33,194 bases of DNA from a virus, in IMG/VR virus record IMGVR_UViG_3300028553_000107, positions 1 through 33,194 of that record, one strand, 5' to 3'. Below the pieces are notes generated by a model. The model made no database searches and had not been told where the DNA came from. It was given only the letters and a program-made list of their open reading frames with translations. Shown here piece after piece: positions 10,501-30,878 of the stretch; the stretch's first letter is position 1; each line of letters opens with the position of its first letter. The translations under genes and the position numbers were made by a program.

Positions 10501-10508
10501 TATAAATA
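10501..10508 (+). promoter_or_regulatory. TATAAATA late-promoter box for the fibre gene at 10515
   Basis: An exact T4-type TATAAATA ends six bases before the ATG at 10515. The transcription start expected about 6-8 bases downstream of such a box would fall on or beside the start codon. Confidence 0.6.
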
Positions 10509-10514
10509 ATATCA

Positions 10515-11117
10515 ATGGCTGATCCGAATGTAGTTAATATCAAAGGACTACCTCGCATTGAGGAAATTGTTAATGGTAATCTTTTAATAGTGGAAAACGA
10601 ACAAGGCACAAATACGCTTGATTTTGTTAATTTTGTTATTGGTCCGAATAACACCAGTTTTTTTAATCAAATTACAAATTTATCTGCTGCCGTGGTTTCT
10701 TTAAGTGCAACAACCACCAGTCTTATTAATAGCTTAAGTGCCACAACCACAAGTCTTATTAATAGCTTATGTGCCACAACAAATGCTGAAATACAATCAC
10801 TTTCCAGCACAGTAGACACTAGACTTTTAAATGTATCTGCAATTTATTACACAACAGGAACAGTAATCATAAGCACTGGATATAACGTCAGTAATTTAGT
10901 TTCAGTCGTAAAATCATCTTCCGACCTGAATGTATCTGCAAATGATTTGACCCTGGTTTTAGGTTCTAGTGCAAGTGGAAATCCATTTATTTATATGAAT
11001 GATAATGATGTTACCAATATTGGAAATGTTGTTAATTTTTACGTGAGAACAACCAATATTGTTCAAACAAGCAGCATAAGTATTCGATACAGAATCTTAA
11101 AACCTTATTCGGTTTAA
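10515..11117 (+). CDS. Tail-fibre-like structural protein, 200 aa
   Basis: The protein is Thr/Ser/Asn/Ala rich and low in cysteine and charge, as phage fibres are. Residues 1-55 resemble the N-termini of the two other fibre-like proteins in this window (…NLLIVENEQGT…LDFVNFVIG against …DHLVGF…VADFITFIE). Residues 56-100 are a heptad-like rod made of an 11-residue repeat, LSATTTSLINS, which probably forms a trimeric coil. The remainder is beta-rich. It is the only plus-strand fibre gene and faces the end of the 11147-11944 fibre gene. It is likely an adhesin or accessory fibre; no chaperone or enzyme motif is seen. Confidence 0.65.
   Translation: MADPNVVNIKGLPRIEEIVNGNLLIVENEQGTNTLDFVNFVIGPNNTSFFNQITNLSAAVVSLSATTTSLINSLSATTTSLINSLCATTNAEIQSLSSTVDTRLLNVSAIYYTTGTVIISTGYNVSNLVSVVKSSSDLNVSANDLTLVLGSSASGNPFIYMNDNDVTNIGNVVNFYVRTTNIVQTSSISIRYRILKPYSV
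10701..10781 (+). repeat. 33-bp tandem repeat (2.5 copies) in fibre gene
   Basis: Units begin at 10701, 10734 and 10767 (TTAAGTGC.ACAACCAC... then CTTATTAATAGC); the first two differ at two bases and the third is partial. Each unit encodes LSATTTSLINS. In-frame copy number change would lengthen or shorten the rod without breaking the gene. Confidence 0.9.
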
Positions 11118-11146
11118 ATATTATAATTAATAAAGCTAAATTATAT

Positions 11147-11944
11147 TTATATAAGATTACCTGTAACTAAAACTCTACCTGATAATGCTGTATATGTGTT
11201 TGTCCCTGTGCTATCTACTCTAAACCATATTCTATTTTGCGGAGATGCATCATTACCAGAAACTAATGCTGTTCCATTTGATGCAGTTACAGATCCACCA
11301 ATTCTATAATATCTGTTTATAGTAATTAAAGTGCCAGGTGTGGTTAAGCTTAGTTGATTTGTAACTTGATTAGCTGCGTTTGTTAATGTATCACTTCTAT
11401 ATAATCTAAAGGCAGGTAAGCTAGTATCACCCACATTACCGCCTGCTACTGCATCAATAATAATGGAAAAATCTGTAGCTAAAAACACTTTACCAGCTGG
11501 AACAGTGTATAGTAACTGAGCAGATGATGTATTAAGAAAATCTATAGAACTTAAAGCTGTAGTACCTACGCCTATTTGAGTGCATATAGTTGTAGCTGGG
11601 TCTGGTATAATACTAGAAATAGAATTTACAGTGCTGTAAACACTATCCCAACTGGCACTGTTGGTTCTTACATTGCTGTATACGCTATCCCAACTGGCAC
11701 TGGCAACTTGTAATGGTGTGATATAAACGCTTTCTTCCCAAGTATCGCTCAAAGATTTTACAGTGCTGTAAACACTATCCCATCTTTCTGAAGATAATGA
11801 TGAACGTATAGAATTGTTTATAGAATTGTTTATAAAATCTGTGTAATTTATTTGAGTTTCCCGAATACCTCGATAACCCACCAAATAATCTTGAAAGGTC
11901 AAGCTTGACAATGAATCAAATGTTGCAAAAGTACTATCAGCCAT
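11147..11944 (-). CDS. Tail-fibre-like structural protein with W-D-S-V-Y repeats, 265 aa
   Basis: Residues 1-48 form an N-terminal module shared with the fibre at 17336-19069 (SSLTFQDYLVGYRG…INYTDFINN versus TSLSASDHLVGFTT…LTVADFITF). Residues 51-110 carry four copies of a roughly 14-residue repeat around SxxWDSVYSTV, which also occurs in the other fibre as W-N-S-T-Y-S-T-V. The C-terminal 150 residues are a different, beta-rich domain (LLYTVPAGKVFLATDFSIII, RLYRSDTLTNAANQV) that could be the receptor-binding tip. The gene ends one base before the membrane-protein gene upstream would continue, so the two are probably co-transcribed. Confidence 0.7.
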   Translation of the reverse strand: MADSTFATFDSLSSLTFQDYLVGYRGIRETQINYTDFINNSINNSIRSSLSSERWDSVYSTVKSLSDTWEESVYITPLQVASASWDSVYSNVRTNSASWDSVYSTVNSISSIIPDPATTICTQIGVGTTALSSIDFLNTSSAQLLYTVPAGKVFLATDFSIIIDAVAGGNVGDTSLPAFRLYRSDTLTNAANQVTNQLSLTTPGTLITINRYYRIGGSVTASNGTALVSGNDASPQNRIWFRVDSTGTNTYTALSGRVLVTGNLI

Positions 11945-11945
11945 A

Positions 11946-12857
11946 TTACATTCCTATACCTCTTACGGTTGGCTCCTTGTATATTATTTTTTCCTTTTCT
12001 TTTTCTATAACGTGGGTTTCCACATTATTTACCTTAATTTTGCGTAAATGTTGATATAAAAGAACCAAAGCAAGCGCCATTGGATCAAAAACAAAGATTA
12101 ATACCAAAATAAAGTATCGAACAGTGCGATCCAAATCCAAGCCCAATCCTTCAGAAATAAACTTAAATGTCAAAATATCACTCTTTTTCACCTGAATTTG
12201 TCTGTTTGAAAGAATCTGTGTTTCCAACTCAAGTATTTCCCTTTGAGTTTGATCATATTCTTGCATTAAATTTGTATATTCTGTATTGGCAGATTCTATG
12301 GCTTTTGATGAAACATCTATCATTCTGTCTTTGGTTTGTTGTGCCCTTTTGTCATTATAAACAATTTTATCCCCTTCTTTGTCTTTGCCTTCCACCATGG
12401 TCGTACTTTTCACAGCATCATTAAGACGTTGTTCTTGTTCTTTTTTGCTTTCATTTAATTTTTTTAAACGATCATCATATTGCACAAGAATTTCTTTTTT
12501 CTTGGCTTTGATGCTTTCCAAATTGTTTATTTTTCCTTCATCAATTGAATATTCCGCTTTACTAATAGTATACGCAGAACTTAAAAATCCGTAAATTCCA
12601 AGACTTGTGATCAGAGAAAGTGCAATTACACCTGCAACAAGATAACTGGTCAGCATTTTGTTAAGCTTGTTCCAAAGATCATGAAGTCCAATAGTGGCTG
12701 AAAATTTTGCAGCTTCTAATGCCAATCCAAGAATAATGATAGGAATGAATTGGCTTTTGAAAAGATGGGCCAGCCCATATACAGAAAAGAACGCGGCACT
12801 TCCGGCTAGTACGAAAATGCTTGCTAAAAGAGAATATTTGTACAAATCTAACTTCAC
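11946..12857 (-). CDS. Inner-membrane protein with long coiled coil, 303 aa
   Basis: Hydrophobic segments near residues 10-30, 35-54 and 70-93 are followed by a charged coiled-coil region at about 100-215 (rich in K, E and Q, e.g. KKEQEQRLNDAV) and a fourth hydrophobic segment near 243-266 ending FVFDPMALALVLLYQHL. This order (membrane helices, coiled coil, then a helix with F-D-P-x-A) resembles DUF4407-type membrane proteins of unknown function. The start is GTG at 12857, overlapping the stop of the upstream gene as GTGA. It lies between two virion-like genes. Possible roles include superinfection exclusion or envelope remodelling, but nothing in the sequence decides this. Confidence 0.6.
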   Translation of the reverse strand: MKLDLYKYSLLASIFVLAGSAAFFSVYGLAHLFKSQFIPIIILGLALEAAKFSATIGLHDLWNKLNKMLTSYLVAGVIALSLITSLGIYGFLSSAYTISKAEYSIDEGKINNLESIKAKKKEILVQYDDRLKKLNESKKEQEQRLNDAVKSTTMVEGKDKEGDKIVYNDKRAQQTKDRMIDVSSKAIESANTEYTNLMQEYDQTQREILELETQILSNRQIQVKKSDILTFKFISEGLGLDLDRTVRYFILVLIFVFDPMALALVLLYQHLRKIKVNNVETHVIEKEKEKIIYKEPTVRGIGM

Positions 12858-13297
12858 GAAAGGAATGTTATATCACCAGAACTAGGTGCAGCCCCTCCTG
12901 ATGTTACTCTTGCTCCTTGTGCATTAATAGGGAGAACGCCTACAGGCACAGTTCCAAAACTTACCCATTGTCCGCCGACATAAAAATCATATGCTTTACT
13001 AGCCCCTACAAAAACACTAGCAGCTGCAGATGCTGTTCCCAAAACAGTGTTTGTTTGAACTGGTATGGCTTTGGTAAAACCTGCCGGAGTGGTTATAACA
13101 GCATAACGGTTATAAATTAAGGGTTGAGTATCGCCATAGGCAGGATTGGCGCAAACTGAAGGATTTAACGTAGAATCTAGAACAGTGGAATTAAAAGTGG
13201 TTACAGGTGGAAAGGCAGTGCTATAGGAAAGTTCTTTAAATTTTCCTTCTTCGAATGTTTGAAAATATCTTACAGTTTGAGATGCTAATATTGCCAT
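12854..13297 (-). CDS. Probable virion-associated protein, 147 aa
   Basis: I do not recognise this family. The protein is rich in Ala, Gly, Thr, Ser and Val with few charges, as structural proteins of tails often are, and its C-terminus (GARVTSGGAAPSSGDITFL) is flexible. No signal peptide or catalytic motif is evident. It carries a CTAAATA box five bases before the start, and its stop overlaps the membrane-protein start, so the two are coupled. The context between fibre genes suggests a head or tail decoration role. Confidence 0.5.
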   Translation of the reverse strand: MAILASQTVRYFQTFEEGKFKELSYSTAFPPVTTFNSTVLDSTLNPSVCANPAYGDTQPLIYNRYAVITTPAGFTKAIPVQTNTVLGTASAAASVFVGASKAYDFYVGGQWVSFGTVPVGVLPINAQGARVTSGGAAPSSGDITFLS

Positions 13298-13302
13298 TAA
13301 AA

Positions 13303-13309
13303 TATTTAG
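13303..13309 (-). promoter_or_regulatory. CTAAATA box before the 12854-13297 gene
   Basis: CTAAATA on the minus strand ends five bases before the ATG at 13297, the commonest spacing in the window. Confidence 0.55.
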
Positions 13310-13321
13310 TAAAAATGCATA

Positions 13322-13519
13322 TTAATTAATAAAACCATTTTTTAAATTATACACACAGTTTCCATCTGTATCTATAATTTCCAAAATATCTTCACTATAG
13401 CTATTAATTTTTTCAAAAATACTTTTATGTGCCTCATAAGCATCTATGGCAGATGCATCAACTGTACGGATTTCTTTTTTCTCATTATTAATGACTTTTA
13501 CAGTGTATTTTTGATTCAT
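13322..13519 (-). CDS. Small conserved-looking hypothetical protein, 65 aa
   Basis: A short soluble protein with an alternating beta pattern at the start (KYTVKVINNEKKEIRTVDA), a helix (AYEAHKSIFEKINSY) and a final strand (DILEIIDTDGNCVYNL). The beta-alpha-beta order suggests a small compact fold, but I know of no named family. It has its own GTAAATA box five bases before the start. Confidence 0.55.
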   Translation of the reverse strand: MNQKYTVKVINNEKKEIRTVDASAIDAYEAHKSIFEKINSYSEDILEIIDTDGNCVYNLKNGFIN

Positions 13520-13524
13520 AAACC

Positions 13525-13531
13525 TATTTAC
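13525..13531 (-). promoter_or_regulatory. GTAAATA box before the 13322-13519 gene
   Basis: GTAAATA on the minus strand ends five bases before the ATG at 13519. Confidence 0.55.
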
Positions 13532-13546
13532 AAGGGTTATGCTTTT

Positions 13547-13759
13547 TTAAAGTTTGGTCTTATCTATGCCCAAAGTAAAGTTTTCACAACCCACACAATC
13601 TTCTACATTAAAAACTCTGAATCTTCCATCATTTAATTGTACCAAAAACATGCAACTATGATCCAATCCATAATCAATAACAACTACTGCTCGTCCTTCT
13701 CCATGATCTTTAGCAACGACCCAGATAGGAGGGTCCAATTGCAATAGTCTTTGATTCAT
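13547..13759 (-). CDS. Small hypothetical protein, 70 aa
   Basis: The protein is mostly beta strands: PPIWVVAKDHGEGRAVVVID and then HSCMFLVQLNDGRFRVFNVE, with two cysteines at D-C-V-G-C. The pattern suggests a small SH3-like or barrel fold. Its start overlaps the stop of the upstream gene as TAATG, so the two are translated together. No function can be assigned. Confidence 0.6.
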   Translation of the reverse strand: MNQRLLQLDPPIWVVAKDHGEGRAVVVIDYGLDHSCMFLVQLNDGRFRVFNVEDCVGCENFTLGIDKTKL

Positions 13760-14118
13760 TAAAAATTACCAAGCAATTGAACTTGTGACATTTTATTTAA
13801 AATATTGTCTTCAGTTAAAACAAAGTTGCTGTAAGCTATTTTTTCTAAAATATTTGGATTTTTTAAATTGATCATTCTGCCCAAGTTTTTACATGTTCTC
13901 ACTTCTATTATAAGGCACGGACTAAAACCGTTCATGAACAATGAAGGGCTTTTCCATTCATAAAGATACTGGTTACCATAAACCTTCTTCAAAATCAAAT
14001 TGGGGTTATTTTCACAAAAAATACGCAAATACTCTGTTATTTTTGCAGAATTTTGTTGACTTGATGTATTTTGACAATATAGTGATGCTATATTTTTATA
14101 ATCCTGTGCAAGCTTCAT
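13759..14118 (-). CDS. Hypothetical protein, 119 aa
   Basis: No family is recognised. The N-terminal third is helical (KLAQDYKNIASLYCQN and KITEYLRIFCENN) and the rest mixed (YLYEWKSPSLFMNGFSPCLI). It is preceded by CTAAATA six bases before the start and shares its 33-base upstream gap with the plus-strand gene at 14152. It is coupled to the 70-aa gene downstream. Confidence 0.5.
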   Translation of the reverse strand: MKLAQDYKNIASLYCQNTSSQQNSAKITEYLRIFCENNPNLILKKVYGNQYLYEWKSPSLFMNGFSPCLIIEVRTCKNLGRMINLKNPNILEKIAYSNFVLTEDNILNKMSQVQLLGNF

Positions 14119-14124
14119 CTTTTA

Positions 14125-14142
14125 TATTTAGCAAAATAAATA
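14125..14142. promoter_or_regulatory. Divergent pair of TAAATA boxes
   Basis: The 33-base gap holds CTAAATA on the minus strand (14125-14131, six bases before the ATG at 14118) and ATAAATA on the plus strand (14136-14142, nine bases before the ATG at 14152). Each would serve one of the two divergent genes. Confidence 0.5.
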
Positions 14143-14151
14143 ATATATAAA

Positions 14152-14598
14152 ATGTCTTTTAACATTTGTTTTACCAGCAGATTTGTTCGTTTATGTGATA
14201 AACTTGAAATACCCACGAGTTTTCTGAAACAAAAAATATATGGTTATTTAAAAGCAACAAAAAAGAAAATAAAAGGAAAACGATTATATTTTGATACACA
14301 TGGAAATCTAAAAATATCCAAATATGAAGAAACGATTCCTTTAATAGGAATTGTAACTTATTCGATAGAAAATACTAAATTAAATATTAAGAGAAAAAAC
14401 TTTTTGCGGGATCTTTTACATGAACTTAGACATTTTCAACAGAACAGAATTTATAAATGGAATATGAATGAATATACCTTAAAAGATATTGATGAAGGAA
14501 ATAGTAGATATTATAAAAGTAAAATAGAAATTGATGCCAGAAAATACGAGAAACGTTCGTTAAAACTTTATCAGGAAGTCAGAAAACTTTATGGTTGA
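14152..14598 (+). CDS. Zincin-like putative metallopeptidase, 148 aa
   Basis: RDLLHELRHFQQNR contains an HExxH motif (H-E-L-R-H, near residues 88-92), the zinc site of zincin metallopeptidases, and KIEIDARKYEKRS offers a downstream E/D-x-x-A-R segment that could supply the third ligand. The basic N-terminus (FLKQKIYGYLKATKKKIKGK) could bind nucleic acid or a membrane surface. The length is like small phage and conjugative-element zincins (ImmA or SprT-like in outline). It is a lone plus-strand gene inserted among minus-strand genes; its last 20 bases overlap the next gene tail to tail. The target is unknown. Confidence 0.6.
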   Translation: MSFNICFTSRFVRLCDKLEIPTSFLKQKIYGYLKATKKKIKGKRLYFDTHGNLKISKYEETIPLIGIVTYSIENTKLNIKRKNFLRDLLHELRHFQQNRIYKWNMNEYTLKDIDEGNSRYYKSKIEIDARKYEKRSLKLYQEVRKLYG

Positions 14599-14857
14599 TC
14601 AAATATAAAAATCCAGGAATACAAAGAAAAAATATTCCCAAATCAAAAAAGAAAATGCCAATAAACAAAGAAAGCCAAAATGAAATGCATATGTGGCATC
14701 CGCTTAACTTTGCCACAAGTGGAAATTTTAAACTCAGATAATCCTGAAACGGAAGTTTAGTAAAAATTGTTAAATCGTCCTGAATTGGACTTTTAAACCA
14801 AATAACCAAAAGTGTTTCTACAATTGCAGAACAAAGAAATAACGATTCAATCAGCAT
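14579..14857 (-). CDS. Small membrane protein with CxxC motif, 92 aa (DUF1360-like)
   Basis: Hydrophobic helices lie at about 1-20 (ESLFLCSAIVETLLVIWF), and 58-90 (FWLSLFIGIFFFDLGIFFLC and a further segment). Between them is LVAKLSGCHICISFWLS, matching the C-x-x-C-x-S-x-W pattern that I associate with DUF1360-type phage and bacterial membrane proteins. It overlaps the next minus-strand gene by 11 bases and the plus-strand zincin by 20 bases at its end. A role in the inner membrane is likely; a lysis-related or exclusion function is possible but not shown. Confidence 0.55.
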   Translation of the reverse strand: MLIESLFLCSAIVETLLVIWFKSPIQDDLTIFTKLPFQDYLSLKFPLVAKLSGCHICISFWLSLFIGIFFFDLGIFFLCIPGFLYLINHKVF

Positions 14858-15068
14858 TTTGCAAAACCAGATTCTTTTTTATGTTTTGAATGGTTTGTGT
14901 TCTTAAATTGTTATGGGCACATGGATAGCATCCACCTTGACGTTTTAGTGTTGCATTGCTTTGCACATATGAATTTCTTAAATTTTGACAATTTTTAATC
15001 TGAATTGGACAGGGTTGATCCATTTGAAAAAACTGCGTAATAATTCCATATTCTTCAACAATGTCCAT
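14847..15068 (-). CDS. Small Cys-rich protein, 73 aa
   Basis: The sequence has four cysteines arranged CPIQIKNC and later GGCYPCAHNN, a spacing that could hold one zinc ion, followed by a basic, Asn-rich tail. I place the start at the ATG at 15068 (MDIVEEYGIITQFF), seven bases after the stop of the upstream gene; a longer reading begins at 15137 but would lie largely inside that gene. The N-terminal end of the family is unknown to me. It may partner with the CxxC membrane protein encoded immediately downstream. Confidence 0.5.
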   Translation of the reverse strand: MDIVEEYGIITQFFQMDQPCPIQIKNCQNLRNSYVQSNATLKRQGGCYPCAHNNLRTQTIQNIKKNLVLQNAD

Positions 15069-15072
15069 AAAA

Positions 15073-15339
15073 TTACTTATCTGAAACTTTTGGTATATCA
15101 ATAGATTGATAATCCTGTTCTTCTTTTTTACTATCACTTATGCTTTGATCCAGAAAAGCTCGCCAAGCTATGAATCCTTGTAAAAAAAAGTTTATAAAAA
15201 TAATGGTGGTTTGCACGGGTCCGATTTCAGAAAAAAGCTTGTATCCACTCAAGTCTGACATCAGGGCAGTCAGAGACGCTATACTGATATAAAGAAATCC
15301 TCTTAAAACGTATTTTTTTAATTTAAATCTTTTTGCCAT
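15073..15339 (-). CDS. Small membrane protein with two predicted helices, 88 aa
   Basis: A basic N-terminus (MAKRFKLKKYVLR) precedes a hydrophobic helix (GFLYISIASLTALMSDL) and a second one (TTIIFINFFLQGFIAW), with a charged C-terminal tail. This shape fits a two-helix inner-membrane protein with both ends in the cytoplasm, as in some holins, but no holin family is recognised. I chose the ATG at 15339 because the codon before it is TTG and because a CTAAATA box stands six bases upstream, inside the 3' end of the nuclease gene. Confidence 0.5.
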   Translation of the reverse strand: MAKRFKLKKYVLRGFLYISIASLTALMSDLSGYKLFSEIGPVQTTIIFINFFLQGFIAWRAFLDQSISDSKKEEQDYQSIDIPKVSDK

Positions 15340-16060
15340 CAATACTATTTAGCAAAGAAATTACTTCATCCTCAAGATATGGCATGCCTATTTTTTTCCA
15401 AATTCCTTCAAAGCTTTCATAATTTTTTATATTTTTTCTTTTAAGCCAATATACAGTTAAACGAGAAGGTTTTTTTCCTGTCATTTTAGAAAACACATAT
15501 GCATAAAGACTCAATTGAAGAGCATATGTAAAATATTCATTACAAGGCAAATGGCTTATGGGGTGTGAAAAATAACTGTTTTCCCATCGACTTGTTCCAA
15601 AAGTGAACTTTTTATTTGTTTTATAATCGATAATTTCAAAAAAATTATTATCCATATACTCTGCAATCAAATCGGCAGTGCCTGCAATATGATAATCATG
15701 ATCATATATCATGGTTTCGCTCAAAACTTTTTTATTGTGCAATCGATGATCCGCATTCATTTTTTCAAGAAATGGTTTCAAAGAAGAATCACAATCATTT
15801 CCTTCCAGATAATTTTGAATATCATGATGTATTCTTGTTCCAAAACCTGTTCCTTTATTTTTAATTTCTTCCCATTCGTTAAGAACATCTTGTTTGTCTA
15901 CTCCCCGGTTTCCAGCAATACGTTCTGCTATTTTTTCGAAATCTGTTTTGGGTTTGAATTCGCCTATAAAAGTTGTTACACTTTTAAAAATCTGACCATC
16001 GGAAATTCTTGTATATGAATGTTTTTCTGAATCGAAAATAATTGGGCAAGAATTTGACAT
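15323..16060 (-). CDS. PD-(D/E)XK nuclease of the RecB/Cas4-like type, 245 aa
   Basis: The metal-dependent nuclease core is clear: GTRIHHDIQNYL (His78) is the helix motif, ETMIYDHDYHIAGTADLIAE (E115 and D130), FEIIDYKTNKKF (D145-x-K147) and YALQLSLYAYVF (Q182, Y186) follow in the order of RecB-family nucleases. It has no helicase domain, so it would act as a single-domain exonuclease or as a partner of phage recombination proteins (UvsY and UvsW are encoded in this window). No Fe-S cysteine cluster of the AddB/Cas4 type is visible. The gene starts a minus-strand run that ends at 14579. No TAAATA box precedes it, which may mark it as an early or middle gene. Confidence 0.85.
   Translation of the reverse strand: MSNSCPIIFDSEKHSYTRISDGQIFKSVTTFIGEFKPKTDFEKIAERIAGNRGVDKQDVLNEWEEIKNKGTGFGTRIHHDIQNYLEGNDCDSSLKPFLEKMNADHRLHNKKVLSETMIYDHDYHIAGTADLIAEYMDNNFFEIIDYKTNKKFTFGTSRWENSYFSHPISHLPCNEYFTYALQLSLYAYVFSKMTGKKPSRLTVYWLKRKNIKNYESFEGIWKKIGMPYLEDEVISLLNSIDGKKI
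15346..15352 (-). promoter_or_regulatory. CTAAATA box inside the nuclease gene, before the 15073-15339 gene
   Basis: CTAAATA on the minus strand ends six bases before the ATG at 15339 and lies within the last codons of the upstream nuclease gene. Confidence 0.5.
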
Positions 16061-16100
16061 TCAATTGTTATAACATAAGATAACTAAAATTCAATGGCAC

Positions 16101-16836: not shown

Positions 16837-16887
16837 ATTCGATTATATCATGGGAACTATATATTCAACATTTCCCTGTAAAATTAT

Positions 16888-16894
16888 CTAAATA
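16888..16894 (+). promoter_or_regulatory. CTAAATA box before the 16900-17106 gene
   Basis: CTAAATA ends five bases before the ATG at 16900. Confidence 0.55.
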
Positions 16895-16899
16895 TTATC

Positions 16900-19075: not shown

Positions 19076-19082
19076 TATTTAC
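19076..19082 (-). promoter_or_regulatory. GTAAATA box before the 17336-19069 fibre gene
   Basis: GTAAATA on the minus strand ends six bases before the ATG at 19069. Confidence 0.55.
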
Positions 19083-19822: not shown

Positions 19823-19860
19823 AAGATTATTTTATCTTATGAATTGGAAATTCAATATGT

Positions 19861-20610: not shown

Positions 20611-20799
20611 TTATTTATCAATTTTTTGATTTAATTGTAACAATTCTTTTATAGCATCTTCAAAATTAACTGTTTGCAATGCAGTTTTGGGTATTTCTGG
20701 TTTTGGTGGTTCAAGATTGTGAACAATATTTTGCAATTTATGCATAACATCATTTTCAAACTTTTTTTTATCTAGATCGTGAATTCGATCTATATGCAT
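20611..20799 (-). CDS. Small coiled-coil hypothetical protein, 62 aa
   Basis: The protein is charged and helical (HDLDKKKFENDVMHKLQNIV) with a proline-rich hinge (EPPKPEIPKTAL) and a second helix (FEDAIKELLQLNQKIDK). This resembles a small adaptor or scaffold fragment. It starts four bases after the 20803 gene stop, is followed by phoH 6 bases later, and so probably belongs to the same transcript. No function can be assigned. Confidence 0.5.
   Translation of the reverse strand: MHIDRIHDLDKKKFENDVMHKLQNIVHNLEPPKPEIPKTALQTVNFEDAIKELLQLNQKIDK
20612..20618 (-). promoter_or_regulatory. ATAAATA box before phoH
   Basis: ATAAATA on the minus strand ends seven bases before the ATG at 20604. Confidence 0.55.
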
Positions 20800-21135: not shown

Positions 21136-21184
21136 ATAGTATTTTATTCAACTATAACTTTTTTCAATAGTCCGGTATATGTTT

Positions 21185-21559: not shown

Positions 21560-21566
21560 TATTTAC
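21560..21566 (-). promoter_or_regulatory. GTAAATA box before the 21330-21554 gene
   Basis: GTAAATA on the minus strand ends five bases before the ATG at 21554. Confidence 0.55.
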
Positions 21567-22720: not shown

Positions 22721-22733
22721 TATTTAGTAAATA
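22721..22733. promoter_or_regulatory. Palindromic divergent late-promoter pair
   Basis: The 23-base gap contains AATATTTAGTAAATATT, a perfect palindrome about a single G. It gives CTAAATA on the minus strand (22721-22727, five bases from the ATG at 22715) and GTAAATA on the plus strand (22727-22733, five bases from the GTG at 22739), sharing one base pair. Two polymerases could not use both at once. Confidence 0.65.
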
Positions 22734-22738
22734 TTAAT

Positions 22739-23050
22739 GTGCATATCATTATAAATGCACAGTTGGTCAATCCACCATCTAGTGTTAGTTGTTTTCGGAC
22801 ATTAACAATGGTTGCGCATGTATTTTGTCATCATAGTGTTCTGATTGAAACCGATTTTGAAAAAGATCCTTATTATAAATTTTTAAAGAAATTTGGTGCT
22901 ATGGATTTTGTTGATGATATTTTAAATACAGGAGAAGAAACTGGATTGAGATTTGATACTGAACCAAGATTTGCGCCTAGTCATGTTTTAGACAGGATAG
23001 ACCACGACAACCTGGATCTTTGTTTGGAACTTATGGGATATCGACGTTAA
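22739..23050 (+). CDS. Small hypothetical protein with GTG start, 103 aa
   Basis: The protein is acidic with a helix-rich C-terminal half (YYKFLKKFGAMDFVDDILNT and HDNLDLCLELMGYRR). I favour the GTG at 22739 because it stands five bases after GTAAATA, exactly the spacing seen for many genes here; the alternative ATG at 22808 would trim 23 residues and has no box. A cysteine/histidine-rich stretch (HVFCHHSVLI) could bind a metal. It is a lone plus-strand gene and its TAA overlaps the TAA of the opposing gene in the palindrome TTAA. Confidence 0.45.
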   Translation: MHIIINAQLVNPPSSVSCFRTLTMVAHVFCHHSVLIETDFEKDPYYKFLKKFGAMDFVDDILNTGEETGLRFDTEPRFAPSHVLDRIDHDNLDLCLELMGYRR

Positions 23051-23837: not shown

Positions 23838-23844
23838 TATTTAA
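23838..23844 (-). promoter_or_regulatory. TTAAATA box before the retropepsin-like gene
   Basis: TTAAATA on the minus strand ends five bases before the ATG at 23832. Confidence 0.5.
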
Positions 23845-24284: not shown

Positions 24285-24307
24285 TATTTATCATAAATAA
24301 CTAAATA
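24285..24307. promoter_or_regulatory. Divergent TAAATA boxes at 24279-24325 gap
   Basis: ATAAATA on the minus strand (24285-24291) is six bases before the ATG at 24278. On the plus strand ATAAATA (24293-24299) and CTAAATA (24301-24307) lie upstream of the ATG at 24326, the nearer one by 18 bases. Confidence 0.5.
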
Positions 24308-24325
24308 ATTATTACCAATCTTTGT

Positions 24326-24592: not shown

Positions 24593-25742
24593 AGTATTTG
24601 GCTGTACCGGGTTTTGCAGTGGAACATTTATGACGTGCCCGAAATGAACGACGTTTTTTAGGATTAGACTTTTTAATTCTTAGTTTAGGATCTCCATAAT
24701 GAACTCGTTTTAATTTTCCATCAACTTTGGCACAGCGCATATATTTTTTATCACTGCGTGTGGATTGTGTTTGACCAGTAACCTTGGTACAACGAGCACC
24801 TTTCTTTTCCATAATCACACCTTCTTTTATTTCCTCATTGTCTTCGTTTCCACCATAGTAACCATAATCTTCATCTGTTCCAAAACCTGCACTGGCAAGA
24901 GCTTCAGCATCATCGCTCATGTCATGACTACCTTGATCACCATCATCACTCATGTCATGGCTACCTTGATCACCATCATCACTACGATCATCGTTATGAT
25001 ATTCGGCGTAATGTTGTTTCAGATAATCTTTAACAGCAGAAACATAATCTTTTGCTAAAGTAACCTTGCTTTGAACCCATCCTTCAAATTGATCATTGGG
25101 TTGAATCATGGGAAGCAATTCATCAATTTCATCTCGAATTGTGCGCAATTGATATTCTATCATACGTCCTTCATCATCACCTTCTGGAACATGTGCTTCG
25201 TTTAAATTGTTCATTAATCTGTTATAAGAATTTGCAAAACTAGTTTCTTCTTTCATGCTTTCTGGATCGCTTTCAATATCATATGGTTCATCTTCAAATT
25301 GATTGTTCTTATTGTCAGAACTAACATTTTTTCTAATAAATTGTATTACTTCTGCATCTGATCTAAATTGGTAAGGAAATAGCTCTCTTGTTCGAAGTAT
25401 TAGCGGAGTTAAATCAGGTTGAGCATCTATTATTTTTGCTTTTTCCTGGTTATTTTTTTCTAAATTTTTTATTGATTCTTTTGCTTTATCCAAGTAAGTT
25501 TTGGAACTCATAGATAAAGTTGTGTTTGATTCTTCGCCTTCATTTGGAGCATATTTGTAATCTTCTGAAATAGAGTCCAGGGTTCTTTTTATAACATTCG
25601 GTTTGAATACTGAAAGCAATTGATTGTAATTTTCAAAAATATATGCAAGAGAGGGCTTTTTCTTGTGTTCTTTGACTATATCTTTTAAGATAATATTCAG
25701 ATCATTTTCATCCATATCATATTCTACATTAATGTTTTTCAT
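24516..25742 (-). CDS. Large charged protein with C-terminal ARHKC...SCKNW mini-domain, 408 aa
   Basis: Residues 1-235 are long charged helices. Residues about 245-275 are an acidic D/S/H-rich stretch with an 11-residue tandem repeat. The C-terminal part reads ARCTKVTGQTQSTRSDKKYM, then VHYGDPKLRIKKSNPKKRRS and FRARHKCSTAKPGTAKYFSC, which I recognise as a basic, Cys-bearing domain seen in aquatic T4-like phages, function unknown. That domain usually ends at S-C-K-x-W; here 19 more residues (IFPFVSALLPLVYGIHTLA) follow and overlap the convergent gene. The start overlaps the ArdC-like gene's stop by four bases. It may be a virion protein; this is inferred from composition and context. Confidence 0.55.
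   Translation of the reverse strand: MKNINVEYDMDENDLNIILKDIVKEHKKKPSLAYIFENYNQLLSVFKPNVIKRTLDSISEDYKYAPNEGEESNTTLSMSSKTYLDKAKESIKNLEKNNQEKAKIIDAQPDLTPLILRTRELFPYQFRSDAEVIQFIRKNVSSDNKNNQFEDEPYDIESDPESMKEETSFANSYNRLMNNLNEAHVPEGDDEGRMIEYQLRTIRDEIDELLPMIQPNDQFEGWVQSKVTLAKDYVSAVKDYLKQHYAEYHNDDRSDDGDQGSHDMSDDGDQGSHDMSDDAEALASAGFGTDEDYGYYGGNEDNEEIKEGVIMEKKGARCTKVTGQTQSTRSDKKYMRCAKVDGKLKRVHYGDPKLRIKKSNPKKRRSFRARHKCSTAKPGTAKYFSCKNWIFPFVSALLPLVYGIHTLA
24909..24985 (-). repeat. 33-bp tandem repeat encoding SDDGDQGSHDM
   Basis: Two almost identical 33-base units in tandem, plus a partial third, encode an acidic Ser/Asp/Gly/His tract within the 24516-25742 gene. Each unit keeps the reading frame. The aspartate-rich tract may bind metal or give solubility. 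Confidence 0.85.
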
Positions 25743-26908
25743 ATGTTTGTGTTTTTTTGCTCCACATAGTTATTTATATATTCTATAAGAATTTTTGCAG
25801 TGTCTTTGATAACATTAAAATTGTTGGTTATATGATCTGGGTCAATTTGCCAAAGAGCCAAATATTTTTCGGTGTGAGGGGCAGGAATATCATATTCACT
25901 CAAAACAAAATTAGCTACACCTTCTGCCTGAAGTTCTCGTATTTTTCTTTCAGGAACTTTATCTCGATCTTTTTGATGCAGTATTTCATGCGCAACTTCA
26001 TGAACTAATGTGCTAAGACTTTCACTAACAAGTTCAATTGTTCCACCTTTACTAACACCTCGAGCACCGCCCAACGCATCTTCGCTTTTTATATCCACAA
26101 CAATATTATTGTCTTTGGCATATTGTTTTACCGCTTCGAATATGGTTCTCATGCGATCATCCAAAGGAGCATCATCGAACCATTGTATTTCTTCTGGTAT
26201 TTCCTTTTCTCTTCCAGGAATAGGTTCAGTTTGAGAAATATCAAATACAGGAACCAAACGAAAACGCATGATTTTTGAAGATTCACCAGTAGTTGGGTCT
26301 ACTCCTACTGTTACATCTGCGTCTTTTTGTTTCACCATAATTGGTGCATAAATCCGAATGGATTTTTCTCCTGGTTTAATTTTCCGACCAAACTGACGAA
26401 ACCACATATTCTTTCCGCCTACCCTAGACGCATTTCTTCTTTGAAGAAAGATAAGAATTTGATTGTTGAAAGAATAGTTCCTAAAACGTTTTTGAAATTG
26501 AACATATTCTTGATATTCTTTGCTATTTTTAACATTTAGAACACCGCTTTTTAAAAGTTCCACAAATTTTTTGAATCGATCCTCCAAATTTTCACCACCA
26601 AATTCAGAAACGGTTGTGTCGGAAGATTCATCTTTATTAAATTCATTCAATTTAGTAATTGTATTTTTTACAAAATCATTAGATTGAGTGTCGTCTAAAG
26701 GAGATGTTTCCCAACGACGCTCCAATGCATTCCATTTAAATCCTAAAGTTTTGATAAAGTCTTTATTTTTATAAGTATCATTACCTGCTTCTTTAGGATT
26801 CTCAAGATCGCTACTTGCTATAAAAATAGTTTTTCCTTCAGGACCCGGTCTTTTTTTCAAAACTAGTTTTTCGTTTAAAATACTTTTTATATTTTTAAAA
26901 GATATCAT
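25739..26908 (-). CDS. ArdC-like antirestriction protein with possible capsid-targeting N-terminus, 389 aa
   Basis: Three parts can be seen. Residues 1-13 (MISFKNIKSILNE) are a short amphipathic start. Residues 50-70 (FIKTLGFKWNALERRWETSP) match a small domain that binds with W/RW repeats (DUF5710-like). Residues 130-200 (EYQEYVQFQKRFRNYSFNNQ and MWFRQFGRKIKPGEKSIRIY) are the ArdC N-terminal ssDNA-binding domain (DUF1738-like), and residues 300-340 carry the zincin HEVAHE (303-308) with ELQAEGVANFVLSEYDI supplying the third ligand. ArdC proteins protect incoming DNA from restriction. The stop overlaps the neighbour's start by four bases. A TAAATA box is 11 bases before the start. Confidence 0.8.
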   Translation of the reverse strand: MISFKNIKSILNEKLVLKKRPGPEGKTIFIASSDLENPKEAGNDTYKNKDFIKTLGFKWNALERRWETSPLDDTQSNDFVKNTITKLNEFNKDESSDTTVSEFGGENLEDRFKKFVELLKSGVLNVKNSKEYQEYVQFQKRFRNYSFNNQILIFLQRRNASRVGGKNMWFRQFGRKIKPGEKSIRIYAPIMVKQKDADVTVGVDPTTGESSKIMRFRLVPVFDISQTEPIPGREKEIPEEIQWFDDAPLDDRMRTIFEAVKQYAKDNNIVVDIKSEDALGGARGVSKGGTIELVSESLSTLVHEVAHEILHQKDRDKVPERKIRELQAEGVANFVLSEYDIPAPHTEKYLALWQIDPDHITNNFNVIKDTAKILIEYINNYVEQKNTNI

Positions 26909-26926
26909 GATTTACTAAGTATTTAG

Positions 26927-27151
26927 ATGGGAATGAGCAGCGATCTTAAGAAATTAGGTGATCTTTATTGTGAGAATTTAGGTCTTGGACCTCAAGCCAA
27001 CAGCACACTGAATCCGGCTGCCAGTATGCCAACTGTGGTTAAAAACGATCCAGAGAAGGTTTTAAACGAGTTTTTGACCTTTTTAAAGGGTCTACAAGGT
27101 CCAGATATTCGTAAAAAAGTAGTTTTGCGTGTTTTGGAAACTATTCTTTAA
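26927..27151 (+). CDS. Small hypothetical protein, 74 aa
   Basis: No family is recognised. It is helical at both ends (SSDLKKLGDLYCENLGLG and VLNEFLTFLKGLQG then IRKKVVLRVLETIL) with a Pro/Asn-rich middle. A second ATG two codons in is an alternative start. It is a lone plus-strand gene between the ArdC-like gene and the HTH-like genes, sharing a 18-base gap with the former; its last 11 bases overlap the 27141 gene tail to tail. No box at the usual spacing was found. Confidence 0.5.
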   Translation: MGMSSDLKKLGDLYCENLGLGPQANSTLNPAASMPTVVKNDPEKVLNEFLTFLKGLQGPDIRKKVVLRVLETIL

Positions 27152-27605
27152 GACGATAAAAATTGATATAACATATTTGTCCATTTTGATGGACCATATT
27201 ACCTTTAAAAATTTCTATTTTTTTGTTTTTATTCAAAATAGATAAAGCACGTCGAGCCGAGTCTTGATTAACTTTTAAATCTCTACAAAGCTGAGTGATT
27301 GTTTTCCAGTTTTTACCTTCAGGAAGTTTTTGACGACTTTTAACATAATCATGATAGATATTTTTCCAATTTTTTTTAATTGGTTTATAAAAAATTTTAC
27401 TGGTGATAGCCTTGCTACATGTTAGGGATGTGCCTACATTTTTTTTAATTTTTTTTGTTTTTTCGCACCATCTTAAAAATTTAATAGAATTTTCTCCACT
27501 ACATTTAATAATGTCCATAATTTCCAATCTGGTTTTCCAATTACCAGTTGGTCTTAACTCTTTTTTCTTTATTATAGCTTCTAATTGTTCAATCCATTTG
27601 GACAT
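27141..27605 (-). CDS. Tandem-module helix-turn-helix-like protein, 154 aa
   Basis: The protein has two copies of a roughly 75-residue module. The second (about 78-154) reads W…R..LPEGKNWKTITQLCRDLKVN…ALSILNKNKKIEIFKGN…YRLKE, consistent with a winged helix-turn-helix: LPxGKNWxTxxEL…, recognition-helix-like VNQDSARRALSIL, then a beta-wing (KIEIFKGNMVHQNGQICYI). The first module (MSKWIEQL…RPTGNWKTRLEIMDII) is a diverged copy. The start lies within the upstream gene, which ends at 27581, so the two overlap by 25 bases. It may regulate transcription or bind DNA; nothing indicates its target. Confidence 0.55.
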   Translation of the reverse strand: MSKWIEQLEAIIKKKELRPTGNWKTRLEIMDIIKCSGENSIKFLRWCEKTKKIKKNVGTSLTCSKAITSKIFYKPIKKNWKNIYHDYVKSRQKLPEGKNWKTITQLCRDLKVNQDSARRALSILNKNKKIEIFKGNMVHQNGQICYINFYRLKE

Positions 27606-28108
27606 AATTTATACCATATTTTACGGATTAGAAATTTTCTTTTGCTATCATATTTGTATCCATCGAAAATTTCGATCTGTTTATTCAATTTGTTTTCTCT
27701 AATAAGTCTTAGAATTTTTTGTCTGCCCAAACCTGTTTTTTCTATCAATTCACCAACCGTAAACCAATTTTTACCAATAGGAATTCTTTGTCTTTTTATT
27801 TTATAAATATTATTTACAAAAAAGTTTTTCCAAGTATCGTTTTTCAAACGATACCATACAGCTTTTTGGATATATCCGTTTTTAGATCTTATATTACCAG
27901 TAAATATTTCACATTCTTTTTTGTGAATCAATTCTGTGATTACACCACGAACCATGTGTACTGATTTATTCGAAGCATTTTGAATTTCGTATATAGTTAA
28001 CCACCCAGGTCCTTTGGGACGCTTTTCATCTTTTCTCATTTCTTGAAAAAGAAATTTTGCCCAATCATCTCTTTCAAGATTTTTTATTCTAAATTTTTTA
28101 GTGTTCAT
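27581..28108 (-). CDS. Tandem-module helix-turn-helix-like protein, 175 aa
   Basis: Two copies of the same module as in the downstream gene are visible: residues about 14-90 (RPKGPGWLTIYEIQNASNKS, then ECEIFTGN with WYRLK) and 91-175 (RIPIGKNWFTVGELIEKTGL, then QIEIFDGY with WYKL). Each module has a W-anchored N-terminal helix, a G-x-x-W-x-T-x-x-E-L helix, a candidate recognition helix and a wing ending in [FW]YRL. It is paralogous to its neighbour, so four modules stand in a row. It was probably made by duplication of a module and then of a gene. A role in transcription control is only an inference. Confidence 0.55.
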   Translation of the reverse strand: MNTKKFRIKNLERDDWAKFLFQEMRKDEKRPKGPGWLTIYEIQNASNKSVHMVRGVITELIHKKECEIFTGNIRSKNGYIQKAVWYRLKNDTWKNFFVNNIYKIKRQRIPIGKNWFTVGELIEKTGLGRQKILRLIRENKLNKQIEIFDGYKYDSKRKFLIRKIWYKLCPNGLNN

Positions 28109-28138
28109 CTACCCATGATAATAGGCACAAAACAATTG

Positions 28139-28888
28139 TCAACTATATACTTTTATATTTGTAGGTATTATATATTTTCGATTACGCTCTTTTGCTTGAT
28201 AAACTTCGTGAGATCCGTCGCTGTGAATAAGACCAAAAGCCCAACCATGCTGCCATCTCAAGCGGCGCATTTGATTTCTATTGTAGCTAGGATTTAAACT
28301 GCTAAGACATCCAATATTCCAGCATTCTCGAACATCAATACTCACACTTCGGAAATAATCGATTGCGTGTGTGTGTCCAAATAAAACATTTCCGTATGTG
28401 TCTGCATGTTGTTTGGAACCATGCATATTGTGACCATAACCATGAACAAATGAAAGGGATCCACATCTGTACACACCTTGTTTTGAATCGTAGGGAAACA
28501 TTTGTACTCTATGTTTTTTAACAAGTTCTCCTATTTCATCTGTTCCTTGTGCTGCATAATCTCGCTTCAAGCCACTTGCTGCGTTGCTTAAAAGATCATA
28601 AATTCTTTCATCGTGGTTTCCTCGTAAAAACACACGTTCTTGACCAAATGAAAAAAACTTTTTAAAAAAATCTTTACCAGCATCCCAATCTTCTGACATG
28701 CTTTGACTTTGCTCGTAGTCCGCACTTGCATTTTTTCGAATGGCACGAAAATCCCAAACGTCACCGATACAAACCGTGAGATCTGGTTTATAATCTCGCA
28801 TAAAATTAAATAAACATTTTAATGCAACTGGGTTCGACTCGTCTCCGTGCACATCACCGGCTGCAACAAACTTAATAGGTTTGGCCAT
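28139..28888 (-). CDS. Calcineurin-like metallophosphoesterase, 249 aa
   Basis: All five metal-binding blocks are present in order: AAGDVHGD (D12, H14), CIGDVWDFR (D43), LRGNHDER (N91, H92, D93), FVHGYGHN and FGHTHAID. This is the PPP/MPE dinuclear phosphoesterase fold, as in lambda PP or YfcE; phage members hydrolyse protein phosphates or nucleotide/2',3'-cyclic phosphates. At 249 residues the length is normal. A TATAAATA ends only one base before the ATG at 28888, closer than elsewhere, so either that box is not used for this start or transcription begins at the second codon. The substrate is unknown. Confidence 0.92.
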   Translation of the reverse strand: MAKPIKFVAAGDVHGDESNPVALKCLFNFMRDYKPDLTVCIGDVWDFRAIRKNASADYEQSQSMSEDWDAGKDFFKKFFSFGQERVFLRGNHDERIYDLLSNAASGLKRDYAAQGTDEIGELVKKHRVQMFPYDSKQGVYRCGSLSFVHGYGHNMHGSKQHADTYGNVLFGHTHAIDYFRSVSIDVRECWNIGCLSSLNPSYNRNQMRRLRWQHGWAFGLIHSDGSHEVYQAKERNRKYIIPTNIKVYS

Positions 28889-28889
28889 A

Positions 28890-28897
28890 TATTTATA
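28890..28897 (-). promoter_or_regulatory. TATAAATA at atypical spacing before the phosphoesterase
   Basis: An exact TATAAATA on the minus strand ends one base before the ATG at 28888, instead of the usual 5-7 bases. It may be a chance match or imply a start further in. Confidence 0.35.
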
Positions 28898-28917
28898 TTA
28901 CATGTAAAAGCGTAATT

Positions 28918-29247
28918 TCAAGCAGTAGTCTCAGGAATATATTTATTAAGTATAGGTAAAATTTTATTTTCTAAATTATTGAATGCATTATTTGCATCAA
29001 TTGTTAAATTAATCAAATCTGCTTTTTCACGATCATCTAATTTATCGATCAAAAGAGCTTTGCGAATCAGATCAACCAGATACTGAACACCTTGGGTATT
29101 TAAATTAGGTGTTTCTTCAGTTGGTTCTTCAGTTGATTGTTCTGGTGGTGTTTCTGCTTCTGGTACATCTTCTATGGAATCTAAATCTGCAGGCGGCGCT
29201 TCATTTAGAAGAGAATATTTCTTTTTTAAAATATTATTAAATTTCAT
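28918..29247 (-). CDS. Acidic hypothetical protein, possible head-core/internal protein, 109 aa
   Basis: MKFNNILKKKYSLLNEAPP begins with the amphipathic peptide ending L-L-N-E, followed by a flexible Glu/Pro/Thr tract (EDVPEAETPPEQSTEEPTEE) and a helical domain (YLVDLIRKALLIDKLDDREK). This is like T4 internal or scaffold proteins cut by the prohead protease, but homology cannot be shown. It is separated from the upstream gene by a shared base (29247), so the two are coupled. Confidence 0.5.
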   Translation of the reverse strand: MKFNNILKKKYSLLNEAPPADLDSIEDVPEAETPPEQSTEEPTEETPNLNTQGVQYLVDLIRKALLIDKLDDREKADLINLTIDANNAFNNLENKILPILNKYIPETTA

Positions 29248-29660
29248 TAAATTTTACTTAAAGTTTGATTAATTTTATTTAATTTTCCAACGAAAGCTTT
29301 CACAGTTCCTTTTACAGCAGTATCCACAACTTTTTTGTCTTGATTACTCATCAATTTTTTTACAACACCCAAATCATCGTCGTTCATTGATGCGTTACTT
29401 TCTTGAGAGTTTTCTTCATCTTCACCTTCTGATTTTTCAGATTGTTTTGATATTTTTCCAGAAGGATCAATTTTCATTTTTCCTTTCTTTCCATCTATAT
29501 CATAGCTGATAATTGCATTCATTTTTTCAATACCATCGTAATTTGCGTTTCCAGAAGAAGTCATTTGATTTACAACATTTTTTTGTAAATCGTTTAATTC
29601 ATATTCTTTAATATCTAATTTTAGATATTCTTGTTCTAAAAGGTTTTGAAATCGAGACAT
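29247..29660 (-). CDS. Hypothetical protein with acidic tract, 137 aa
   Basis: It begins MSRFQNLLEQEYLKLD, again an amphipathic start with F-x-x-L-L, then has helices, a Glu/Ser/Asp-rich linker (KSEGEDEENSQESNAS) and a final helix (KVVDTAVKGTVKAFVGKLNK). No family is recognised. A GTAAATA box is seven bases before the start. Its acidic linker resembles its downstream neighbour, and they may work together as internal head or scaffold proteins. Confidence 0.45.
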   Translation of the reverse strand: MSRFQNLLEQEYLKLDIKEYELNDLQKNVVNQMTSSGNANYDGIEKMNAIISYDIDGKKGKMKIDPSGKISKQSEKSEGEDEENSQESNASMNDDDLGVVKKLMSNQDKKVVDTAVKGTVKAFVGKLNKINQTLSKI

Positions 29661-29667
29661 ATAAGAT

Positions 29668-29674
29668 TATTTAC
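29668..29674 (-). promoter_or_regulatory. GTAAATA box before the 29247-29660 gene
   Basis: GTAAATA on the minus strand ends seven bases before the ATG at 29660. Confidence 0.5.
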
Positions 29675-30210
29675 TCTAATTTCATAGTATAATTGCGTTT
29701 TAAGACAGAATTAGATAGATTATACTGTTTAAGAATTTTTTGTATGTCTTTCATGCTGAAATTTTTACTACTTTGTGCCAATATGGAATTTATAATTTTG
29801 GAAGCAATTTTTTTATAAAACAACTTGTCGGAAAATATCAATTTACCAAAATCTTCAAACGTTCCTTCATATTCTATAAGAGTATAATTAAGATATTTTT
29901 CAAATTTTTTAAGAATATTAAAACATATTTTATATATTTCAACATCTTCAAAGTATTCTGTGAGTTCTAAATCTTCATTCATTTTTTCAGACAATATGAA
30001 AGCAATATCCTCTTTCTGACGTTTGATTACAAAATTGGAAAGAAGTAGATTGGCCAGATGATAAACAAGTATATTTTTTGCATCCTTGTTTTTATTCAAA
30101 GGCTTTTCCAATAATTTTAAATTGTGACATGAATCCAAAATCCTTTTTTCAATACGATTTGAAAAAGCATCCCAGAAATCAATAAAAACAATATTATCCT
30201 TCTTTTTCAT
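29671..30210 (-). CDS. Mostly helical hypothetical protein, 179 aa
   Basis: The start was placed at the ATG at 30210 (MKKKDNIVFIDFWDAFSNRI), which overlaps the upstream nuclease gene by 17 bases; a longer reading from 30261 would add 17 residues inside that gene. The N-terminus has an IVFIDFWDAF strand, the rest is helical (NILVYHLANLLLSNFVIKRQ and YKICFNILKKFEKYLNYT), with a C-terminal Lys/Asn-rich tail. No family recognised. The neighbour is a GIY-YIG nuclease, which suggests it may be a passenger. Confidence 0.45.
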   Translation of the reverse strand: MKKKDNIVFIDFWDAFSNRIEKRILDSCHNLKLLEKPLNKNKDAKNILVYHLANLLLSNFVIKRQKEDIAFILSEKMNEDLELTEYFEDVEIYKICFNILKKFEKYLNYTLIEYEGTFEDFGKLIFSDKLFYKKIASKIINSILAQSSKNFSMKDIQKILKQYNLSNSVLKRNYTMKLE

Positions 30211-30613
30211 TTTGGAACCAGTATTCCCGGGGTTTTCCAAGTCTGCAGTTAAGTATTCCATTGTAGTATTGCTTATTTTTTATCACTTCGTTTTCAATTT
30301 GCAACTTTATCTCTTCATATCCAAGCTCCCATTTGCTTTTGCAAAACCTTAAAATTTCAAAAGTAAAATTTTCTTTACCATATTTTTCTATATCTTCATT
30401 TAATTCCCTGCAACTTCCAGTGTAAGTTTTCCAATCACTTTCAGAATATGATACTTTCCTATTTTTACGGCTTTTTAATCTTCTGCTTTTTTTAAATTGC
30501 AACTGTTTCTTTCCAATATATTTTCTATTATTTTTTATATTGGTGATCAAATAAATGAACCCAAAACTCTCAGGTTCAAATTTTTCACAAATCCAGTGAC
30601 CATGATCACTCAT
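30194..30613 (-). CDS. GIY-YIG family endonuclease, 139 aa
   Basis: GFIYLITNIKNNRKYIGKKQ carries the two GIY-YIG strands (residues 18-37, reading F-I-Y and Y-I-G), followed by DWKTYTGSCRELNEDIEKYG and FTFEILRFCKSKWELGYEEI, a stretch I recognise from small standalone phage nucleases of this type. The catalytic Arg and Glu are plausibly K/R after Y-I-G-K and E in the ENEV segment. Such nucleases cut host or rival DNA or act as mobile endonucleases; no separate DNA-binding domain is fused. Two flanking helices fit a compact domain. Confidence 0.85.
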   Translation of the reverse strand: MSDHGHWICEKFEPESFGFIYLITNIKNNRKYIGKKQLQFKKSRRLKSRKNRKVSYSESDWKTYTGSCRELNEDIEKYGKENFTFEILRFCKSKWELGYEEIKLQIENEVIKNKQYYNGILNCRLGKPREYWFQNEKEG

Positions 30614-30616
30614 GAA

Positions 30617-30865
30617 TTACATTCCCCGTCTTTGTATCAAAATATTTCTTTTTTTCTTTTTCTTTTTACCTTTTTTTGAAATTTCAGTTGCTCCAAATGC
30701 AAAAGGAATTCTGGCATCTCCTGGTGCATATCTGTCTCCACTGGAAATAGTTCCAGGAGGATTAAAAATTCCTCCTACGCTTGGACCTGATCCAAACACA
30801 CCACCTGTTCCGGAGACATTATCTTCGGACAGCATTTTAACAAAAATATTTGAAAAAAGACTCAT
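30617..30865 (-). CDS. Small Gly/Lys-rich probable virion protein, 82 aa
   Basis: MSLFSNIFVKMLSEDNVSG begins with an amphipathic peptide ending M-L-S-E. SGDRYAPGDARIPFAFGATE is a stretch I recognise as recurring in T4-like aquatic phages, function unknown. The C-terminus is a lysine run (KKGKKKKKKR). Short basic Gly-rich composition fits an internal head protein that binds DNA. An ATAAATA box lies six bases before the start. Confidence 0.5.
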   Translation of the reverse strand: MSLFSNIFVKMLSEDNVSGTGGVFGSGPSVGGIFNPPGTISSGDRYAPGDARIPFAFGATEISKKGKKKKKKRNILIQRRGM

Positions 30866-30871
30866 ATAAAC

Positions 30872-30878
30872 TATTTAT
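30872..30878 (-). promoter_or_regulatory. ATAAATA box before the 30617-30865 gene
   Basis: ATAAATA on the minus strand ends six bases before the ATG at 30865. The same 18-base gap also leads to uvsY, which has only an imperfect ATGAATA before it. Confidence 0.5.

Follow-up and report, generated by a model that had tools for sequence, protein, structure and literature searches.

Promoter boxes placed at start codons suggest leaderless late and early messages in an uncultivated clade of T4-like phages

The window analyzed here, the whole 33,194-base IMG/VR virus fragment IMGVR_UViG_3300028553_000107, derives, by its gp55, UvsW, UvsY and PhoH content, from a distant T4-like phage, and many of its start codons are preceded at 5–7 nt by the hexamer TAAATA, the core of the T4 late promoter. 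This placement is a trait of the whole uncultivated T4-like clade to which the window belongs. Leaderless mRNAs in the clade are strongly supported by comparison of its sequences, and it is very probable that gp55-type late promoters and sigma70-type early promoters both put the transcription start (+1) at the start codon, with the genes that head transcription units translated leaderless. In the textbook system of late transcription, that of T4, messages from late promoters normally have leaders, most of them with a Shine-Dalgarno (SD) site.

In the mechanism we favor, TAAATA would act as a gp55-type late promoter whose +1 coincides with the start codon's first base at a spacing of 5 nt and lies one to two bases before it at spacings of 6–7 nt, leaving late leaders of 0–2 nt. 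Early promoters of the host-sigma70 type would lie one base further out, the -10 element ending 6 nt before the ATG, and would likewise make the start codon the site of +1. A gene that heads a transcription unit would be translated as a leaderless message from a 5′-terminal AUG or GUG, and operon-internal genes and the major capsid gene gp23 would be reached by coupling or through SD sites. The actual +1 and translation from the 5′-terminal codon are what we infer from sequence. A first-pass annotation had predicted leaderless late mRNAs from the window, and this prediction gains support from shuffled controls, conserved spacing in homologs, the split between late and early genes, the position of boxes at unit heads, the lack of SD sites, the purines at the predicted +1 and the contrast with T4.

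Box spacing in the window and across the clade

All 15 start codons that the annotation had listed have a TAAATA ending 5, 6 or 7 nt upstream (7 at 5 nt, 6 at 6 nt and 2 at 7 nt):

10503..10508, plus strand: TAAATA, spacing 6 to ATG 10515; 6 in 15 of 23 homologs
13303..13308, minus strand: TAAATA, spacing 5 to ATG 13297; 5 in 2 of 2 homologs
13525..13530, minus strand: TAAATA, spacing 5 to ATG 13519; 5 in 1 of 2 homologs
14125..14130, minus strand: TAAATA, spacing 6 to ATG 14118; 6 in 2 of 2 homologs
15346..15351, minus strand: TAAATA, spacing 6 to ATG 15339; 6 in 2 of 2 homologs
16889..16894, plus strand: TAAATA, spacing 5 to ATG 16900; 5 in 2 of 2 homologs
19076..19081, minus strand: TAAATA, spacing 6 to ATG 19069 (tail-fibre-like protein); 6 in 3 of 3 homologs
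20612..20617, minus strand: TAAATA, spacing 7 to ATG 20604 (PhoH); 5–7 in 46 of 47 homologs, 7 in 37
21560..21565, minus strand: TAAATA, spacing 5 to ATG 21554; 5 in 5 of 5 homologs
22721..22726, minus strand: TAAATA, spacing 5 to ATG 22715 (divergent pair with 22739); 5 in 17 of 32 homologs
22728..22733, plus strand: TAAATA, spacing 5 to GTG 22739; 5 in 10 of 13 homologs, GTG in 13 of 13
23838..23843, minus strand: TAAATA, spacing 5 to ATG 23832; 5 in 9 of 9 homologs
24285..24290, minus strand: TAAATA, spacing 6 to ATG 24278; in 1 of 7 homologs only
29668..29673, minus strand: TAAATA, spacing 7 to ATG 29660; 5 or 7 in 6 of 6 homologs
30872..30877, minus strand: TAAATA, spacing 6 to ATG 30865; 6 in 9 of 15 homologs

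The start at 22739 is real as a GTG, given the conservation of that codon and its box. Boxes absent from the original list lie before 14152 (spacing 9; 2 of 2 homologs), 26908 (spacing 11; 7 of 8 homologs) and 3768 (spacing 11). As a word TAAATA is not enriched in the window, where 70 copies were found against 70.85 expected, and the signal is therefore purely positional. In the comparison with shuffled sequence that the annotation had proposed, 16 of 1,327 window ATGs have a box at 5–7 nt, against 4.33±2.18 in 300 dinucleotide-preserving shuffles that reached at most 12; the distance distribution is sharper than in shuffled sequence, and the adverse outcome named beforehand, a distribution no sharper than that, did not occur. 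When genes were called blind to the box, 12 of the 53 window genes had TAAATA at 5–7 nt, and just 8 boxes fell at all other distances up to 39 nt. The near-absence of SD motifs also held, with SD-like motifs before 4 of the 53 genes and 2.1 expected.

The window is part of a large uncultivated IMG/VR group found via PhoH (53–100% identity) and UvsW, and it was pooled with five large related records (G010, G002, G005, G003 and G006) to give 839 distinct gene starts. When all hexamers were scanned, unsupervised, at all distances from these starts, the top signal was TAAATA at 5 nt (96 genes against 3.7 expected), and the same word was strong at 6 nt (53 against 4.5) and present before 19 genes at 7 nt. 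Counts at 0–4 nt were 1, 3, 1, 3 and 2, which makes a hard left edge at 5, and 41 genes have the box at 8–12 nt. Altogether 168 genes have TAAATA at 5–7 nt, against a median of 19 for other orders of the same six letters. The cluster recurs, in small numbers, in loci whose PhoH is just 53–61% identical. That the box merely supplies the preceding gene with its stop codon was considered and rejected, as this holds for only 22 of the 168. TAAGTA appears to be a minor variant of the late promoter, found at 5 nt before 11 genes (0.7 expected), for example gp20 of G002.

Gene classes, early promoters and the predicted start point

With S-PM2 genes as guides for assigning late and early core genes, the box at leaderless spacing precedes 18 of 36 late core genes and 1 of 50 early ones, and the sigma70 type precedes none of the 36 late and 15 of the 50 early genes (Fisher 8e-8 for the box and 1e-4 for sigma70). 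Same-strand gaps of 10 nt or less are found for 33% of box genes and 21% of sigma70 genes, against 68% of the others (p~1e-10); genes of the first two kinds stand at the heads of transcription units, and the others mostly abut or overlap their upstream neighbor. SD sites follow the same division, at 0.6% of box genes, 1.4% of sigma70 genes and 11.6% of others, and reach their highest frequency, 19%, in genes that overlap.

No box lies near the start of the major capsid gene gp23. In the five related records a conserved GGTCG(AC) element (GGTCGAC-like) stands about 30 nt before it; most of them also have SD-like sites of the AGGA or GGAG type, and a hairpin-like stretch lies further upstream. 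The gene would thus be a leadered exception, its upstream stretch perhaps an attenuator or processing site. The SD-like sites indicate that the ribosome can probably use SD pairing; promoter-proximal genes offer it none.

Genes lacking a box gave as their strongest signals two sets of hexamers before the ATG, TTGATT/TTGATA with their end at 28 nt and TATAAT/TAATAT/TATTAT with their end at 6 nt. Scoring of full -35/-10 pairs across the clade placed the end of the -10 box exactly 6 nt before the start in 45 of 104 matches; no peak at 6 was seen for such pairs in T4, S-PM2, P-SSM2, Melnitz, immuto or HTVC008M. Five early-type sites were found in the window, the best at 28108:

28115..28142, minus strand: sigma70-type TTGACA-N16-TATCAT, 6 nt before ATG 28108; at 6 in 10 of 10 homologs
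28895..28921, minus strand: sigma70-type TTGAAA-N15-TAATAT, 6 nt before ATG 28888 (metallophosphoesterase); at 5–6 in 8 of 9 homologs
19829..19855, minus strand: sigma70-type TTGAAT-N15-TAAAAT, 6 nt before ATG 19822 (thymidylate-kinase-like); at 5 or 6 in 26 of 51 homologs
16842..16868, minus strand: sigma70-type TTGAAT-N15-TATAAT, 5 nt before ATG 16836 (dCMP deaminase); at 5 in 2 of 3 homologs
21141..21167, minus strand: sigma70-type TTGAAA-N15-TAAAAT, 5 nt before ATG 21135; weaker, with homologs at 5 and 7

A TAAATA at 28890-28895, which overlaps the second of these sites with a spacing of 1 to ATG 28888, is not conserved, and the homologs have the sigma70-type promoter at 5–6 nt; a box is therefore not always a late promoter. 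The annotation had tied leaderless placement to late, gp55-dependent transcription; this stands for the late genes and fails as a property specific to gp55, the early sigma70-type promoters being placed alike.

The standard position of a -10 hexamer is -12 to -7, so that a spacing of 6 would put +1 on the A of the ATG with a leader of 0. The T4 late box occupies -13 to -6 (PMC1524935; see also PMC2988020), that is, it ends five bases before +1, and a spacing of 5 would therefore put +1 on the same A, again with a leader of 0. Two unrelated promoter types whose textbook geometries are 1 nt apart are found to sit 1 nt apart. The start codons themselves are consistent with this register: after TAAATA-N5, ATG occurs 126 times against 18.6 and GTG 52 times against 8.6, but TTG 23 times against 23.0, as expected if the codon's first base is +1 and a purine is required there. 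Of the 19 genes with a spacing of 7, 17 have A or G as the sixth base after the box (box+6). At a spacing of 6 this base is a purine in just 53%, with an A often one base earlier, which makes one-base slippage likely.

Alternative readings and known systems

Several observations weigh against start-codon placement of +1 as a general account. Half of the late core genes have no box at leaderless spacing (gp17, gp23, gp4 and most gp20), and the box before 24278 is weakly conserved. At a spacing of 6, box+6 is T in 45% of cases, some of which may have their +1 at box+5 or box+7, and the +1 offset is itself borrowed by analogy from T4 and E. coli. In addition, searches of 7 clade records gave no match to the gp33 co-activator (phrog_254), an 80-aa protein that may be diverged, or to the gp45 sliding clamp (phrog_223), both of which were matched in HTVC008M as a control (E=6e-82 for gp45), and the late machinery of the clade may differ from that of T4.

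The last point bears on the possibility that the boxes are late promoters from which this gp55 starts at a different offset, further down- or upstream, or gives short functional leaders. The gp55 is indeed highly diverged (~38–43% identity between the window protein and its best isolate match), and the 41 genes with spacings of 8–12, like the failure to find gp33 and gp45, would fit such a shift. However, the left edge at exactly 5 and the purine starts at box+6 agree with +1 at box+6, and were the offset larger, 96 genes would lose their start codon from the transcript; we judge a different offset very unlikely. The annotation had itself raised the alternative that TAAATA is a translation signal. 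It would then belong to the mRNA as an AU-rich element for ribosome binding or standby in initiation, and not be a promoter, a reading that the tight spacing to starts and the near-absence of SD sites would accommodate. Such an element is disfavored, and we consider it highly improbable, because the boxes are concentrated at the heads of transcription units and not at operon-internal genes, are found in late and not early core genes, and coincide with the T4 late promoter core, while early genes carry an unrelated sigma70 -35/-10 pair at matching spacing instead and TTG is not enriched. Chance, or an artefact of gene calling in AT-rich DNA, might be suspected from the ordinary overall frequency of TAAATA, yet is excluded by the shuffles, the letter-order controls, the box-blind calls and conservation among homologs, and its probability is negligible. 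Promoters that set +1 at the start codon thus remain the preferred explanation. A broader claim, that the whole clade has relocated its early and its late promoters alike to the start codon, so that promoter-proximal genes of both kinds are leaderless throughout the genome, with a gp55 that works without recognizable gp33 or gp45, seems rather doubtful.

The gp55-dependent late promoters of T4 (TATAAATA, -13 to -6) resemble those of the clade in their TAAATA core, their sigma factor, the late structural genes downstream and the absence of a -35 element. In contrast to the clade, with boxes at 5–7 nt and no SD, T4 boxes near genes lie 14–52 nt before the start and an SD site is present in 74% of these genes, in keeping with the difference from leadered T4 late mRNAs that the annotation had anticipated; no gene in T4, S-PM2 or the examined half of Syn9 has a box at 5–7 nt. 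Activated late transcription in T4 needs gp33 and gp45, neither of which was detected in the seven clade records. The late promoters of Aeromonas phage Aeh1 (CTAAATA) and cyanophage S-PM2 (NATAAATA) (PMC1524935, PMC2984593), like those of the clade, have relaxed first letters around TAAATA, and Aeh1, counted by pattern alone, has no excess at the clade spacing (2 against 4 in the control). A partial form is present in the cultured Pelagibacter phage HTVC008M, in which 10 genes, mostly without SD, have TAAATA exactly 5 nt before the ATG, and SD sites precede 18% of genes with a box at 5–7 nt and 92% of those with a box 12–50 nt away. Unlike in the clade, the pattern there is confined to ~6% of genes, and late genes with leaders and an SD site are common.

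Leaderless genes of bacteria have a TANNNT box ~12 bp before the start and are common in Actinobacteria and Deinococcus-Thermus (PMC3160421). Their geometry is the same as that of the clade's early sigma70 class, but they represent host sigma70 promoters, and the clade appears to place a phage late sigma promoter in this way as well. Thermus phages P23-45 and phiYS40 make leaderless middle and late mRNAs at genome scale. These phages and their promoters are unrelated to the clade, and their host is itself rich in leaderless genes. We found no description of leaderless late messages in T4-like phages in the open-licence literature searched.

If gp55-type and sigma70-type promoters do converge on one +1, the clade would be a natural case of promoter placement setting the mode of translation, and its host would have to be efficient at translating leaderless messages. 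Should the phage also shift host ribosomes to leaderless initiation, this would amount to a takeover strategy exerted through message architecture. The spacing would also provide a practical rule by which the starts of genes and their late promoters could be located in uncultivated phages, including relatives of groups in which published searches failed: in a survey of pelagimyophages, late promoters could not be found with the method used for cyanophages (PMC7029224). The cultured HTVC008M makes the leaderless idea directly testable.

Relatives, host clues and late transcription machinery

The genes on which the assignment of the window leans include, besides PhoH (20604, minus strand), the following:

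From 30884: UvsY
From 31273: UvsW
32685..33194, plus strand: gp55-type late sigma factor, phrog_234 match at E=2.8e-26; runs off the contig end

Further genes encode dCMP deaminase, a thymidylate-kinase-like protein and a metallophosphoesterase, and 194-10481 reads as a sugar-nucleotide/glycosyltransferase-like block with few or no relatives in the clade loci. The nearest cultured relatives are remote, as the divergence of gp55 indicates; the clade portal protein is 32–34% identical to those of HTVC008M and cyanophages, HTVC008M being the top isolate match (32%).

WhiB is absent from 15 clade records, and an Actinobacterial host is not supported by this marker. A WhiB-positive, small-genome metagenome-assembled genome (MAG), in which leaderless TANNNT boxes peak at 6 nt, contains a GDP-mannose dehydratase with 68% identity to that of the window. 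As a route to the host this match was rejected, since a 67% match also occurs in a MAG labelled Gammaproteobacteria; with family members of that MAG reaching just ~38–50% in full-length matches, the gene looks horizontally moved. A Bacteroidota host, suggested by tail matches to Flavobacterium phages, was likewise set aside: the early promoters of the clade are TTGAxx/TATAAT, and the motifs upstream of genes in Flavobacterium phage immuto differ. In immuto (MW353175, L206-L213) a long repeat near GTATCAATAATTAAAAC...AAAAGTT-ATG stands before about ten genes as an apparent phage-specific promoter. The tRNA content of the clade records examined gave no host clue, and an ARAGORN tmRNA call in G006 (L186 283-688, minus strand), with an unusually long predicted tag, is doubtful.

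The gp55-type sigma that the annotation had placed at 32685 was confirmed by the phrog_234 match, and gp55 homologs are present in G002, G003, G005, G006 and G010. The clade late box consists of the TAAATA core without a -35 element, positions -13/-12 being relaxed with A preferred. Since the clamp loader gp44 is present in the clade, some clamp is expected; a clamp gene beside gp44 was sought, but the neighbors are dUTPase-like and virion-type genes and no clamp was recognized among them. The window gp55 is without insert at the site where the gp55 of G010 (IMGVR_UViG_3300013131_000036; L161), a 513 aa open reading frame on the minus strand at ~11152-12694 of the strand read, carries an intein-like insert that separates ...NFINY from SYRDEM, starts CVDTQTEALTQRGWLKYSEL and ends ...YVTGN before S.

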